A DNA stretch of 8,891 nucleotides from Methanobacteriota archaeon (GTDB lineage: Archaea > Thermoplasmatota > Poseidoniia > Poseidoniales > Poseidoniaceae): positions 1 to 8,891 of the forward strand of contig JAPOHM010000050.1 in assembly GCA_029979405.1 (NCBI GenBank). Direction: 5' to 3'. Each line of letters begins with the position of its first letter. Position 1 is the stretch's first letter. Of the stretch, positions 2,530 to 8,891 are shown one piece after another. Made by a program: the position numbers and the translations under genes. The notes under the pieces are model-generated. The model was not told the origin of the DNA and ran no database searches. It saw only the letters and a program-made list of their open reading frames with translations.

Positions 2530-5304
2530 ATGAAATCTGTATTAGATGGGATGACTACTTTCAGTGCAAATAAACCAAAAACGGCAGTTGTAATCTTCTT
2601 TGTTTTCATACTAACATTGTCACCATTTGCTATGTTCATTCAATTCGATAATAGTGAAGATGCCTTCTTCCCTGATAATGAAACAGTACAACTTCTGAAT
2701 GAGGTTGAAGATGAGTATCAAGCATCGATAGACTTCATTCGGTTTATTGATCGAATTGAATCAGGAGACCTTTACGAGAGTGAAACTTGGGAAAAATTGG
2801 CAATATTGGAAGCAATACTTCTCGAGAATAGTGATTTAGAAGAATATCAATATCCTCTGTACGGTATTCAACCTAATAACGGAATGGCAAGCACAGCCAT
2901 TCAGTGGTCTAAAATTCAAGACAAAGATTCCAATTTACCGTGGATAAACAATCTAAGCATTGCAATAAACGCAGTTACAACTTCAACCAATGAAACTCGT
3001 AATTCCTCGATTTTAGAACTTGGAACTATGATTGATACGATACCGTCACCATCAGTCATTACTTCTCAAGAACTGCGAAATTGGGCGCCGATAGAACCCG
3101 CCAAATGGCTTCAGAGAATAGATAATAATTCTAATATCTCAGCTGAAATAGTTTCGTTGAATATTGAAATTGAGACAATGATTTCCTCATTGGGAAGTGA
3201 TTCTGGATTAGTTGCTATACATGCAGGTCAAATTTCTGCTAAGTTAGGTGTGCTACAAGGTATGCAATACATCGATTACAAAGAGTTAATGATCTCTAAT
3301 TTGCCTGCCGAGGATAATGAAAATCCATGGCAATCGGATGGTCCAATTCTAACCTCTTTTGTAGTAATTACAGACCCAGAAATTCATGAAAAGAAAGTAA
3401 TTGGTGATGTCCAAGAAGAAATTTCGCTTTGGGCCTCGGATTTGCTTGAACAAGCAAGGGAAGAAACCGGTGATGAAGATGTATCAGTCTTTTCATTTTC
3501 ACAGTTGGCGACTGGCCAAAATGCTAATCTTGGAAAGGAATTAGGAATCCTAAATTCTGTTTGTTTACTGCTACTTGGATTTATTTTGTGGACGAAATTC
3601 CGAAGCTTAAGAGATACTGCGAGTGTTCTCACACTAACAGTATTTGCAATAATAGCAACTTATGGGTCTGCAGGTCTATTGACTCTGTTGGGCCTAAAGA
3701 TGCCGTTTAATGCCGCAATGAACTCTATTCCAATTCTGCTACTTGCAATTGGTGTGGATTATGGTCTGCACGTGGTCTCAAGGATAAGAGAAGAATTATT
3801 GGATGAAGAAAAGAATAATCCTCAAAATAGAGAAACTCTAAAAGATTTCAGCATTGATGCAAGAAGGGAGGCTATTAGAAAAGGTACACTTCTAACATCT
3901 GCTGCCTTGATGGTGGCGATTTTCACTGACATTGTTGGGTTCCTTTCTTTCAGATTTTCAACACAGGCTTTCCTTGTTTCGTTTGGTACAGTAATCGCTA
4001 TTGGCTTGTTCTACATTTACATCCTTAGCATTACTGTATTACCAGCTTTAATGATGATAATACCGCCTAAGAAACTAAAATTAGAAAAATCAGGAAAGAT
4101 AGAAATCGGTCCCGTTTCAAAGTGGATTGGTTCCCTGACAAAGACTCCAGTAAAGGTAGTCGCTGTTACAATAATCATTTCGATTCCGATGTTGCTAGGG
4201 TTCCAGCAATTGGAAGTAGGTTTTGATACGAGAGATAATTTTGATGATTCAGTTCCAGTCGTCCAAGATTTCTTGGTGATTGCAGATGAATTCCAAAGCA
4301 GTCCTGCACCTCTCTATGTTGTCATAAATGGTGACGTAATTTCTTCCGAGGGTCGTGCATTATACAATGAGGTAATTGTACAACTAGACGGGACAGATGG
4401 AATCAATGGCGTACCTGTAGGTATTTGGTCGGTTTTAGAGGAATCAAGAATTTCAAACCCAGAGTTAGATTCATTGTTGATAGAAATTGAATCTGATGAA
4501 TCCGCTTACAGTTCTCTAAAAGATTGGTTAATGTCTGCCGACGGCAGGAATATCTCCAGTGGTAATCTCAATTCAGATGCTTCGCAGACGGTCATCTCAT
4601 TCCAAGCGGCGACCCTTGATTGGCAAGATGCCGTAGATTTCGAGGTCGCATTAAGTGAAAAATTAACAGATGTGGCAGAGTTTAGTCAAGGTGATTTTGA
4701 AGCTAAATTATCAGGAAGGTCACTAATTCTTGCTAAGGTAACTGCAGACGTTGCCGATTCAGCAGTAATTTCGACTGCAACGGTTGCAGGAGTAATTTTG
4801 TTGATGCTAATTTCTATTAATTCCGTACGACAAAAAGACATCGTTCAGGGTGCCGCACGTGGATTTGTAACATGGATTCCGCTCATGGCAGTGGTTGTTT
4901 GGGTATACGGTATAATGGGATTGACCGGTTACCAATTGAATTCGCAAACGGTTACAATAGGCGCTTTGACTCTAGGTTTGGGAGTTGATTATGCAGTTCA
5001 CCTAACAACGCGCTTGGAAGAGGAAGTAGAACACAATCCACACGGAACTCCTGAGGATTGGGTTACAAAATCCAGTGCTACAACAGGAAGAGCGATGTTT
5101 GGTGCCGCTCTGACAACGGCCGGTGGTTTCTCAGTACTGAATTTATCATCTCTCGTTCCACTTCAATTGTTCGGACAGGTTTTCGTGGTGGCCATCATTC
5201 TCGCATTGGTATCAAGTTTGATGTTACTGCCACCATTGTACGCTTCTTTCCTTAGGAAAGATGCAGAGAAATACTTAGCGTTAAATGCAGGTGAATCAGA
5301 ATAA
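2530..5304 (+). CDS. RND superfamily exporter (MMPL/Patched-like), 12 membrane segments
   Basis: The 924-residue protein shows the duplicated RND layout: TM1 at about 17-38, a long extracytoplasmic loop (39-337), five helices (about 338-513), TM7 (540-560), a second extracytoplasmic loop (561-744) and five more helices (745-905). The diagnostic TM4 and TM10 motifs are both present: 'LLAIGVDYGLHVVSRI' (404-419, GVDY 408-411) and 'LGLGVDYAVHLTTRLEEE' (815-832, GVDY 818-821). Their aspartates are the expected proton-relay residues. Relatives (MMPL, HAE3, hopanoid exporters, NPC1, Patched) move lipids, sterols or hydrophobic compounds using ion gradients. The substrate cannot be read from sequence. 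The first loop, about 300 residues, is much longer than the second, about 185. The acidic tail 'KYLALNAGESE' is cytoplasmic. The ATG at 2530 fits a TATA-like box at 2492-2498. The stop codon abuts the convergent DUF2237 gene with no spacer. Confidence 0.92.
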   Translation: MKSVLDGMTTFSANKPKTAVVIFFVFILTLSPFAMFIQFDNSEDAFFPDNETVQLLNEVEDEYQASIDFIRFIDRIESGDLYESETWEKLAILEAILLENSDLEEYQYPLYGIQPNNGMASTAIQWSKIQDKDSNLPWINNLSIAINAVTTSTNETRNSSILELGTMIDTIPSPSVITSQELRNWAPIEPAKWLQRIDNNSNISAEIVSLNIEIETMISSLGSDSGLVAIHAGQISAKLGVLQGMQYIDYKELMISNLPAEDNENPWQSDGPILTSFVVITDPEIHEKKVIGDVQEEISLWASDLLEQAREETGDEDVSVFSFSQLATGQNANLGKELGILNSVCLLLLGFILWTKFRSLRDTASVLTLTVFAIIATYGSAGLLTLLGLKMPFNAAMNSIPILLLAIGVDYGLHVVSRIREELLDEEKNNPQNRETLKDFSIDARREAIRKGTLLTSAALMVAIFTDIVGFLSFRFSTQAFLVSFGTVIAIGLFYIYILSITVLPALMMIIPPKKLKLEKSGKIEIGPVSKWIGSLTKTPVKVVAVTIIISIPMLLGFQQLEVGFDTRDNFDDSVPVVQDFLVIADEFQSSPAPLYVVINGDVISSEGRALYNEVIVQLDGTDGINGVPVGIWSVLEESRISNPELDSLLIEIESDESAYSSLKDWLMSADGRNISSGNLNSDASQTVISFQAATLDWQDAVDFEVALSEKLTDVAEFSQGDFEAKLSGRSLILAKVTADVADSAVISTATVAGVILLMLISINSVRQKDIVQGAARGFVTWIPLMAVVVWVYGIMGLTGYQLNSQTVTIGALTLGLGVDYAVHLTTRLEEEVEHNPHGTPEDWVTKSSATTGRAMFGAALTTAGGFSVLNLSSLVPLQLFGQVFVVAIILALVSSLMLLPPLYASFLRKDAEKYLALNAGESE

Positions 5305-5664
5305 TCAAACGGCTCTTTCTTCCAATAATTCCAATGGAATTATTTCAAGGGCTTTTTGATTAGTCGCTTCCAAATCCACTGGGCAGGCGACTCCGTTATT
5401 CAAAGCATCCAACCATGTGCGAGCACAAACGCACCATGAGTCTCCAGGCTTGAGGCCTGGGAAATTAAAATGTGGAGCAGGAGTCATCAAGTCATTTCCT
5501 CGCATTTTAGCGAAGTTAAGAAATTCTTCCGTTACAATACAGCAAACGGTGTGAGATCCGCGGTCATTTTCATCTGTATTACAATAGCCGTCTCTATACC
5601 ACCCAGTTAGAGGCTTACAGGAACATTCTCCGATGTCCTCGCCAAGTACATTCTTCTGTGACAT
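5305..5664 (-). CDS. DUF2237 family protein, cysteine-rich, unknown function
   Basis: At 119 residues this is a full-length member of the DUF2237 family, found in bacteria and some archaea, function unknown. Family hallmarks are all present: 'NVLGEDIGECS' (5-15), 'PLTGWYRDGYCNT' (18-30), 'TEEFLNFAKMRGNDL' (45-59), 'FPGLKPGDSWCVCA' (68-81), and 'LEATNQKALEIIPLELL' (98-114). Eight cysteines (14, 16, 28, 41, 42, 78, 80, 94) could bind metal or serve redox roles, which is inference. There is no signal peptide, so it is likely cytoplasmic. It starts 38 bases after the CD36-like gene on the same strand and may share its transcript; no clear TATA box lies in the gap. Its stop codon abuts the RND exporter's stop codon. 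A 10-bp-arm palindrome (5324-5344) lies within its last codons. Confidence 0.9.
   Translation of the reverse strand: MSQKNVLGEDIGECSCKPLTGWYRDGYCNTDENDRGSHTVCCIVTEEFLNFAKMRGNDLMTPAPHFNFPGLKPGDSWCVCARTWLDALNNGVACPVDLEATNQKALEIIPLELLEERAV
5324..5344. repeat. Perfect inverted repeat near the tail-to-tail gene junction
   Basis: Arms AATAATTCCA (5324-5333) and TGGAATTATT (5335-5344) are exact complements around a single A. As RNA it would form nine base pairs with a three-base loop. It starts 20 bases after the RND exporter stop codon and lies inside the coding end of the DUF2237 gene (codons for IIPLELL). It could fold at the 3' end of the exporter transcript. No T-run follows on either strand, so a classical terminator is not supported. 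Confidence 0.4.
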
Positions 5665-5702
5665 GGCGTTCGGAGTCCGGCTAATTACTTGAAATTGTGT
5701 AA

Positions 5703-8630
5703 CTATTCCTCAGAATCCCCTATTGCGTCAGTTGTAATATACTCCTTTTCAGGTTGGGTTAGTACTAGAGCTTCGAATTCATTCTCAGAATCGGTTCTCA
5801 GTGCTAAAATCAGTCCAAATACTAGCCCAGATAGGCCGATTATCCAGAATGAAACTGTAACCCAATCAATCCAGTGGTCAAAGTTCGAGAAATACATGAT
5901 AGAGTCTTGATTAGTTACAATATTAGAGACTAAAACTTCAGCGGTTTCATCATCTAACTCTCCTGAGGTTTTTATCATGAAGACCTCCGTTAAATTGTCC
6001 ATTGTTGGTGGTTCTTGTTGTTCGGTATTAGGCCTCGTATCTAAGTAAAATATTGACTCGGATTGACCGCCGATGATTACCTTGCTAATTGATTCGGCTT
6101 TGATTTCAACTTCGCTACCAAAGTAAACGGGCAGTGCTCCAGGAATCGCATCTAATATGTCTCCATTGTTGATTAATTTAGCTTGAATTGGCCTAGTTAA
6201 TGGGTCCATGCTCGCTTTACACACGTCGACTGGCACTCCTTTGAGTTCTCCATTGGAACTACAGTCCAATGGCACTACTCCGTAACCGGATAGGTCAACA
6301 AGATCTCCATCTCCCGTAATGAAACTGCCAATCGTTTCACCTTGCAGTTCCGCAGTAATCAATCCATATGTTGCATCTTCTTTTTCTAAGGTTCTCCAAC
6401 CGATGTATTCACTGTCTCCTACCATTACAGTTTCACCTTTATTGCAGGAATCAGACTCTCCCGTACAAATGGTTAGAATTGCAGGAGCTCCAGTTGATTT
6501 TCCACCATCCACATATTGTGCTGAACCAAAATATGTTTCATTCGACTCTAAACTCGTCCAACCTTCAGTCATATTTGTCGAATCACCAGTGGCAAGGTAT
6601 GCATTGACAGGATCATGCCACCCGAGAAGCCAATTGTTCACTGGCTGGGTTAGGTACTCCGAGGTACCAAAACTATCCTTTAGGAAATCAGGAACGAAAT
6701 TTTTGAACACGACTTCCATCATCAGCAGTCTTGCGGCTGCTGCGGCGTTTTCGTCAATTTGGTAAATTTCTGCTACAGTTTGATCATTCCATTCTACTGA
6801 TTCAGCAAGTTCTCCAGTTGAATAGTTGATAGGTAGGGATTTACCACTTAATTCTCCATATAAGAACATGGTTGCCCCTTCGGCTTTTGTGAGACCATAC
6901 GGGCCATACAACATTCTTGCACTATCTTCTTGAGTTAAATCTACAGGGTCAGCTTCTGGGAATCCAAGAATTCCAGAGCCCCACATGCCACCTGCATTCA
7001 ATGAATATTCCATGTAGGTGTTGTCTATGGGGTTAATGGAACCGAAGCTTTGGTTTACGAATTCAGATGCAGTGATATTTCCTTCTCCTCCAACAAGAAT
7101 CAGAGGAAGGGAGACATCGTTGTTTAACCAAGATTGACAGAATTGCTTGATGTCATCATGCTGACTTGACGTCAGGCCGTATGTCTCCATTGCTTCAATC
7201 TTTGACATTGAAATGAATGAATCAAGACCGAATGAAAGTCCAGATTCACTTACGGCTACAATTCCGAGTGGTTCATCTGTTCCATCTCCCATCCCCAGAA
7301 CATTTCTAGCCACCTCATTTGAAATTGATATCCCCAATAGAGCTTCAAATCTTGTGGACAGATTAACCAAATCTTCGGAGGTGTTTGTCACGTAATCATC
7401 ATCTAGAGCCCCATAATCCATCATCAGGCTACCCATTCCTCCGAAAAGTGTCCAATCTCTTGCAAGGGTAATTTCAATGTCAGTTGGATGTTCGAATCCC
7501 CACAATTCTGCCCTCTGCAGAGTAACCGAATCTTCAGGATTCGCCTGAATCTCTTCCAGAGTATCCGGTTCTCCCATTGCTGCATATACCAAAGGTCCCA
7601 TGTAATTGATGAATGCTAAATCTTCTCCTGAAGGTCCTTCTGCGTGGTAGAACATGTGCTCTAAGTCTAAATCTGAGACGAATGAACTCGATTCATTATC
7701 TTCGATTCCATTTCCATTTACGTCACCCTCTAAGGTTTCATTTTCATCGATAACTCCGTTCCCGTTATCGTCACCTAGTAAATTACCAGTTTCAGAATCT
7801 CTCCAAATCTCATCGTATTCAAGAATACCATCGCCATCGTCATTCCACGTGCCAGAAATCCATTGTGGATGTACTCCTCCAGAACTTAGGTATGTTTGAT
7901 TTTCATCGTTTGTGAATGCTCCACCGTATGCTTCATCAAATGCAGTGAACACTCCGTCAAGGAAGAACGATTCAGCAGAGTTGTGAAGGAGGGTGTCTAT
8001 AATGTAAATTGAGCCAGGCCCTTCCACGGTATTCAAAATGGCCATGTGTTCCTCTCTAATTTCATCCGCAACACCGTGCGCAGCAGATACCTGCTGGAAA
8101 TGGATGTCGATTACCCCAGAGACGAATCCTACTTTTGTAATGTCCATGACAGCATTAATCGCAGTACCAGTGGCTCCTACAACTTGAGGATTGAATGCAA
8201 TATTCAACTGGCTAACATTTGTGTCACAAGAGTAAGCAGTATCATCCGAACATGCGTATGAGGTAATTTGGCTGTACTTTAACAAACCATTCTTTATGTC
8301 ATAATCTTCAACAGTTCGCTTTAGAGTAACGTCGTATGTAATTGGACCAATTTTTTCGTAAATCGGTTCAGTGCCATTATTTTCAACATCGTCTACATTC
8401 AAAATCGACCACGCATAAAAGTCCCTTTGACTGGTTTCTTCCGCCCATTCTTCTTGTACCTCTAAACATAGTACATCTTTGCATATGTCGTCTTTTACTT
8501 TTGTAGCAACAGCATCATTGACTGCATCAGGGACCGCTCCCGTTGCCATTGGGCCAATAACTGCAAGGTTTAACATTACCAAAACAAAGCCTACGCCGAG
8601 GAAAGTTAGGTTCAATGGTTTCAGATTCAT
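5703..8630 (-). CDS. CD36/SR-B/LIMP-2-like two-anchor membrane protein with a large insertion carrying EF-hand-like loops
   Basis: The 975-residue protein has one hydrophobic anchor near each end (about 8-28 and 924-943) and a large outside domain, the topology of CD36 proteins. Matches by eye: after the first anchor, 'FYAWSILNVDDVENNG' then 'PIYEKIGPITYDV' (71-101) aligns with CD36 'FWIFDVQNPQEV...RGPYTYRV'. 'NNWLLGWHDPVNAYL' (665-679) aligns with 'RELLWGYRDPFLSLV'. 'ALPVYFGSEVEI' and 'SIFYLDTRPNTE' (832-870) align with 'LPHFLYASPDV' and 'RTYLDIEPITG'. CD36 proteins bind and channel lipids; function here is inferred. Residues of roughly 180-640 have no CD36 counterpart. They include EF-hand-like loops 'NDDGDGILEYDE' (263-274) and 'DDNGNGVIDENE' (287-298), and a weaker one at 303-314. 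Nine cysteines include the close pairs 50/55, 127/135, 722/729 and 790/804, which suggest disulfides. Thirteen N-x-S/T sequons lie in the ectodomain. The ATG at 8630 precedes the anchor correctly; a GAGGT two bases upstream is too close to be a good ribosome site. Confidence 0.8.
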   Translation of the reverse strand: MNLKPLNLTFLGVGFVLVMLNLAVIGPMATGAVPDAVNDAVATKVKDDICKDVLCLEVQEEWAEETSQRDFYAWSILNVDDVENNGTEPIYEKIGPITYDVTLKRTVEDYDIKNGLLKYSQITSYACSDDTAYSCDTNVSQLNIAFNPQVVGATGTAINAVMDITKVGFVSGVIDIHFQQVSAAHGVADEIREEHMAILNTVEGPGSIYIIDTLLHNSAESFFLDGVFTAFDEAYGGAFTNDENQTYLSSGGVHPQWISGTWNDDGDGILEYDEIWRDSETGNLLGDDNGNGVIDENETLEGDVNGNGIEDNESSSFVSDLDLEHMFYHAEGPSGEDLAFINYMGPLVYAAMGEPDTLEEIQANPEDSVTLQRAELWGFEHPTDIEITLARDWTLFGGMGSLMMDYGALDDDYVTNTSEDLVNLSTRFEALLGISISNEVARNVLGMGDGTDEPLGIVAVSESGLSFGLDSFISMSKIEAMETYGLTSSQHDDIKQFCQSWLNNDVSLPLILVGGEGNITASEFVNQSFGSINPIDNTYMEYSLNAGGMWGSGILGFPEADPVDLTQEDSARMLYGPYGLTKAEGATMFLYGELSGKSLPINYSTGELAESVEWNDQTVAEIYQIDENAAAAARLLMMEVVFKNFVPDFLKDSFGTSEYLTQPVNNWLLGWHDPVNAYLATGDSTNMTEGWTSLESNETYFGSAQYVDGGKSTGAPAILTICTGESDSCNKGETVMVGDSEYIGWRTLEKEDATYGLITAELQGETIGSFITGDGDLVDLSGYGVVPLDCSSNGELKGVPVDVCKASMDPLTRPIQAKLINNGDILDAIPGALPVYFGSEVEIKAESISKVIIGGQSESIFYLDTRPNTEQQEPPTMDNLTEVFMIKTSGELDDETAEVLVSNIVTNQDSIMYFSNFDHWIDWVTVSFWIIGLSGLVFGLILALRTDSENEFEALVLTQPEKEYITTDAIGDSEE

Positions 8631-8687: not shown

Positions 8688-8891
8688 TTATTCCGTTCCG
8701 GAAATACTTCCATCAGATTGTAATTTGTATAATCTGACTGTACTCGTAGCTCCACTCATCGCTTGGGGAGATCCTGAAATCGCTACTATTCGCTCACCAC
8801 GCTTGATTGTTCCCTTTTCTGCAAGAATAGAAATAGCGTTCTGCATTGTTTTAGAACCTCTATCATTTTCTTCGACGATTACTGATTTAAC
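8688..8891 (-). CDS. pyk: Pyruvate kinase, C-terminal end (5' part beyond window)
   Basis: The minus frame is open from the window edge to a TAA at 8688-8690, giving 67 residues. The sequence 'AISILAEKGTIKRGERIVAI' followed by 'SGSPQAMSGATSTVRLYKLQ' is the end of the pyruvate kinase C-terminal domain. Relatives show 'G....GD.VV...G.P....G.TN..RV'. The enzyme converts phosphoenolpyruvate and ADP to pyruvate and ATP in the cytoplasm. The catalytic barrel lies outside the window, so activity cannot be judged. After the conserved end the protein has a short polar tail, 'SDGSISGTE'. The stop is 57 bases before the start of the CD36-like gene on the same strand. Confidence 0.85.
   Translation of the reverse strand, partial: VKSVIVEENDRGSKTMQNAISILAEKGTIKRGERIVAISGSPQAMSGATSTVRLYKLQSDGSISGTE

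Follow-up and report, generated by a model that had tools for sequence, protein, structure and literature searches.

A CD36/SR-B family homologue with a predicted helical apex insert in Poseidoniales archaea

An Archaeal Protein of the CD36 Type

Can an archaeon encode a scavenger receptor of the CD36/SR-B/LIMP-2 type and, if so, what might such a protein do? The question is raised by an 8,891-nucleotide stretch of DNA from a member of the Poseidoniaceae (contig JAPOHM010000050.1; hereafter, the window), in which a sequence-only reading had proposed such a gene at 5703..8630. These coordinates were exact for an open reading frame on the minus strand, with its ATG at 8630 and its stop at 5703, which encodes 975 residues (the window protein). 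Because a hidden Markov model (HMM), profile alignment, the predicted fold and the distribution of relatives agreed, the proposed homology was supported, and the window protein very probably belongs to the CD36/SR-B family as an archaeal member. Its parts are as follows:

5703..8630, minus strand: CD36/SR-B family protein, 975 residues (Pfam, profile alignment, predicted fold)
8529..8618, minus strand: N-terminal membrane anchor, residues 5-34 (hydropathy; model helix 4-31)
8163..8429, minus strand: CD36 N-terminal beta block, residues 68-156 (Pfam PF01130, E 7.7e-9; hhalign)
6756..8168, minus strand: predicted, largely helical apex insert, residues ~155-625
7737..7844, minus strand: within the insert, a pair of acidic loops that resemble EF hands, residues 263-298 (pattern scan; low model confidence here)
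6606..6632, minus strand: WLLGWHDPV motif, residues 667-675, counterpart of CD36 LLWGYRDP (hhalign)
6228..6248, minus strand: ELKGVPV motif, residues 795-801, counterpart of CD36 NLKGIPV (hhalign, CD36 profile against archaeal profile A2)
5940..5993, minus strand: C-terminal block LTEVFMIKTSGELDDETA, residues 880-897, counterpart of CD36 VPILWLNETGTIGDEKA (same alignment)
5793..5870, minus strand: C-terminal membrane anchor, residues 921-946, then an acidic tail (hydropathy; model helix 920-944)

The PF01130 match covered only positions 51-134 of the 463 in the model, and its 35 bits exceeded the gathering score of 26.5, which confirmed the first of three motif blocks picked out by the sequence-only reading, that after the first anchor. 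All ten paralogues scanned with this model matched it (26.5-73.5 bits), six with two separate matching stretches, and some resembled CD36 more closely than the window protein does. Among the 88 homologues listed in a protein search, 84 were already marked CD36 in Pfam's precomputed annotation. A 39-row profile searched against the PDB returned four sequences at E <= 1, all of them CD36 or LIMP-2, with E values (0.18-0.68) that were not significant and are suggestive only. Phmmer with the single window protein found no match in the PDB, and an NCBIfam scan of the protein found no family at E <= 1.

Alignment of a CD36 profile with A2 by hhalign placed CD36 LLWGYRDP on a column block that reads LLGWHDP (668-674) in the window protein, as had been proposed; the row printed there was locus L062, and the window motifs were read from the same columns. 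In a second archaeal alignment, A1, W667 and L669 to V675 of this motif were invariant and L668 was variable. The local alignment of the N-terminal block had an E value of 1.1e-6 with A2 (probability 91%) and 2.8e-4 with A1 (41%). The C-terminal half alone aligned over 218 columns (E 2.1e-4, probability 46%) and scored 36.5, compared to 22.5 for the best of 100 column shuffles and 22.8 when reversed. With the insert removed, the core aligned over 328 columns (E 3.9e-7, probability 93%), and none of 100 column shuffles reached the score of either the C-terminal half or the core. Since the shuffled and reversed controls of the C-terminal half scored far lower, the collinear likeness to CD36 is more than chance, as judged with a CD36 profile that was shallow (8 rows, Neff about 1.6). 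The third proposed block held in part: GALPVYFGS stands in the claimed order relative to LPHFLYASP, while the register there, and that of TYLDIEP, is uncertain. The pairing of VPILWLNETGTIGDEKA with LTEVFMIKTSGELDDETA was also seen with LIMP-2 in the 39-row profile search, at only -2.5 bits.

Anchors, Predicted Fold and Apex Insert

Hydropathy over the whole protein exceeded 1.6 at residues 5-34 and 921-946 only, in accord with the anchors claimed at both ends of a large ectodomain. Together with the model helices, this gives the TM-CD36-TM (TM, transmembrane) architecture used as a criterion in a survey of SR-Bs (PMC10715195). Both tails would be cytoplasmic and the ectodomain outward-facing. 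The protein is acidic (16.8% D+E, 4% K+R), and its 14 N-glycosylation sequons compare with 8.0 expected, a number equalled or exceeded in 40 of 2000 shuffles. Eight of its nine cysteines lie in close pairs (50/55, 127/135, 722/729 and 790/804), which some subfamilies retain and others, for example that of L062, lack. Cysteine bridges are described for several mammalian and insect CD36/SR-B members; on an informal comparison, the archaeal arrangement appears to differ from that of CD36 and LIMP-2.

The predicted model has the asymmetric beta-barrel ectodomain fold of CD36/SR-B. With an HMM match and a predicted barrel, the outcome was the opposite of the one that the sequence-only reading had named as evidence against itself, namely neither a PF01130 match nor a CD36 barrel. 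Because of the apex insert, the window protein is about twice the length of CD36; this point, the published bacterial CD36-like fold discussed below and the existing Pfam annotation were all absent from that reading. The insert, of ~470 residues, was confidently predicted, and in the model it appears to replace or overlay the three-helix apex bundle of CD36. That bundle is variable across eukaryotic SR-Bs (PMC10715195). Structure comparison of the insert with the PDB found no good match, no close solved relative and no known binding fold, a result which does not prove a new fold. The acidic loops within the insert, which are EF-hand-like or dockerin-like, occur in close relatives and are absent from more distant A1 rows.

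Distribution in Archaea

A scan of genome contigs yielded 24 loci, all 24 labelled Euryarchaeota or euryarchaeote, Poseidoniales, Poseidoniaceae or Poseidonia, which bore out the claim of an archaeal host. Eukaryotic contamination was rejected because the CD36 gene has archaeal neighbors and turns up in many genomes of a single archaeal order. Genomes with PF01130 at E <= 0.001 were counted in the phylum, class and order (the last presumably Poseidoniales) of G005, the genome of locus L024 and a Marine Group II (MG-II) record. They numbered 101 of 389 in the phylum set (89 over the cut-off), 134 of 194 in the class set (115 over) and 199 of 292 in the order set (169 over), and none of 14 control genomes in each case. 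The class set contained all 101 phylum positives, and every one of the 134 class positives reappeared in the order set, for which 140 of the 199 order positives were compared. With profile A2, positives in the phylum set rose to 115 of 389; 11 of the 14 genomes gained were in the order set among the matches listed, and G301, G347 and G368 were not among these. Genome completeness was not given, so absences from these counts, which cover the phylum of G005, are soft.

At the low end, in L080, identity to the window protein is about 26% over the best tblastn segment. A protein search with 13 diverse members returned only four proteins; its 7989 candidates were probably filled by unrelated word matches, and it is no evidence of absence elsewhere. 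As a probe for a viral origin, two pattern scans of viral contigs matched 38 and 59 stretches, none encoding a relative, with patterns that reach close relatives only.

Gene Neighborhood

The order in the window is pyruvate kinase (3' end), CD36 and DUF2237, all on the minus strand, and then a convergent MMPL gene; an archaeal RFC small subunit is also encoded (NCBIfam scan) and, like the labels of the 24 loci, points to an archaeal host.

8691..8891, minus strand: 3' end of the pyruvate kinase gene, just ahead of the CD36 gene (80.5% to the L003 protein in tblastn)
5305..5664, minus strand: DUF2237 protein, starting 38 bp past the end of the CD36 gene (Pfam E 3.6e-52)
2530..5304, plus strand: MMPL/RND transporter, whose gene converges on the CD36 operon (Pfam MMPL E 9.5e-27)

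The L003 counterpart of the upstream gene is a pyruvate kinase by Pfam (E 1e-97), and of 44 loci examined, 14 have pyruvate kinase upstream of CD36 (L001-L010, L012, L014, L016 and L068). The transporter is HAE3- and HpnN-like in NCBIfam, below the cut-offs of both models. Among the 15 loci L001-L015, all but L001 have an SPFH/Band 7 (stomatin-like) gene after CD36 (14 loci); the window, like L001, has none. The reference copy is L003:10967-11884, and those of L002 and L004-L015 lie at the matching place and are 85-99% identical. The order pyruvate kinase-CD36-SPFH/Band 7-DUF2237 in these near relatives suggests that the CD36 protein may work there with a membrane-organizing SPFH protein, whose gene is missing from the window.

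Other subfamilies have other neighbors. A GH38 alpha-mannosidase and a mannitol dehydrogenase were near the gene of the CD36-likest subfamily in all three fetched loci (L062, L066 and L067). L066 and L067 also carry a gene that Pfam assigns to the FGGY kinases, and Pfam confirmed GH38 in L062 and L067. In another subfamily (L070:3267-5813 and L074:7677-10001) the CD36 gene lies between a TctA-like transporter (confirmed by Pfam in L070) and a lamin-tail (LTD) plus phospholipase-D-like (PLD) protein. Two distant paralogues stand head to head in L065 of genome G074, at 5422-8028 (minus) and 8115-10664 (plus), with similar pairs in L063 and L064. In L024, a chromosome-level record, one paralogue is split over two frames (7914-9647 and 9611-10603).

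Genes for 3-hydroxyacyl-CoA dehydrogenase were seen near the CD36 gene in L020 and L072. By eye, such a gene lay within about 5 kb of the CD36 match in 5 of 50 genomes among the matches listed (G006, G133, G343, G374 and G506), compared to a rough estimate of 1.5 expected (P 0.017) with assumed gene numbers. The link to fatty-acid oxidation is weak, because some of the five genomes may share one inherited gene order.

Possible Roles of the Window Protein

The role that we favor, and regard as reasonably probable, is that of an outward-facing lipid conduit, with lipid binding and uptake being predictions. The enlarged apex would pick up a hydrophobic or lipid-bearing ligand, and a putative inner tunnel of the barrel would deliver it to the membrane's outer face. 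Such a hand-over through a tunnel is thought to apply to CD36 and LIMP-2.

Traffic in the opposite direction, with the protein exporting the cell's own envelope lipids as the partner of an MMPL/RND flippase, is suggested by PgfA and MmpL3 in mycobacteria (PMC9678360) and by the gene order within the window's subfamily. We consider it unlikely, as the MMPL-CD36 order was not seen outside that subfamily, the MMPL gene is convergent and outside the CD36 operon, and L006 has no MMPL gene though the remaining order is kept. An MMPL gene was present in 10 of the 24 loci of the genome-contig scan, and tblastn found none in L016-L024 (nine loci) or L062-L081 (20 loci), some of which have short flanks. 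Moreover, the window protein had no match to PF11271 (DUF3068/PorA), the family of PgfA, at E <= 1, and two paralogues reached 16.4 and 17.5 bits, below the curated 29.5.

LIMP-2 is known as a glycosidase receptor. Its docking of beta-glucocerebrosidase (complex, PDB 9fjf) and the GH38 gene near that of the CD36-likest subfamily would both fit a receptor or docking protein that binds proteins or polysaccharides at the cell surface, in which the insert would be a protein- or glycan-binding head rather than part of a lipid conduit. The huge and variable apex, the EF-hand-like loops and the excess of sequons are consistent with such a dock. However, no GH38 gene was seen adjoining the window's subfamily, and the structure comparison gave the insert no binding fold, so this alternative, too, appears improbable to us.

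Origin and Significance

The tree comprised 38 archaeal and 3 vertebrate rows, with CD36 and LIMP-2 as the only eukaryotic proteins. Excluded from it were the P proteins and L025-L061, five partial loci (L011, L013, L015, L022 and L023), the split locus L024, and two near-copies, L066 (95% to L067) and L071 (96% to L070). A tree had been suggested in the sequence-only reading as a check; the vertebrate rows separated from the archaeal rows (support 100/100; intervening branches 2.66 and 1.72). With only CD36 and LIMP-2 as eukaryotes, long branches and long-branch warnings, the tree cannot root the family, and no direction was drawn between the two origins named in that reading, a prokaryotic root or a transfer from a eukaryote.

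Archaea are not known to carry out phagocytosis. A survey of 165 eukaryotic species, in whose main text "archaea" and "prokaryot" do not occur, treats the SR-Bs as an ancient family of eukaryotes with a tentative tie to the phagosome (PMC10715195). Because a diverse archaeal family passes the same test of an HMM match plus two anchors, that tie is weakened and the origin of the family becomes testable. We speculate, tentatively and at somewhat less than even confidence, that a single lipid-handling superfamily, present in prokaryotes before phagocytosis, includes CD36, the Poseidoniales proteins and actinobacterial LmcA/PgfA as its branches. The archaeal branch would have evolved a helical apex domain of unsolved fold, and with it a group that is among the commonest archaea of the ocean would capture lipids or particles bearing them.

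Marine Group II is abundant and uncultured, and it gains here a concrete candidate for the uptake of hydrophobic matter. The predicted apex domain, confidently modeled, is likewise on offer for study.

Comparison with Known Systems

The window protein shares with CD36 and LIMP-2/SCARB2 (PF01130) two anchors, a beta-barrel ectodomain and, in the same order, the N-terminal, GYRDP-like, LKGIPV-like and C-terminal blocks. It differs from CD36 in its length (975 residues compared to 472), its archaeal host and its helical apex insert. A bacterial protein with a CD36-like fold has already been published, MSMEG_0317, known as LmcA or PgfA (DUF3068; PMC8972800, PMC9678360). LmcA lacks the three-helix apex (PMC8972800), whereas the archaeal apex is giant. 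In this respect the archaeal protein is similar to those eukaryotic SR-Bs with lineage-specific apex expansions (PMC10715195), in which the apex is likewise enlarged on a conserved barrel.
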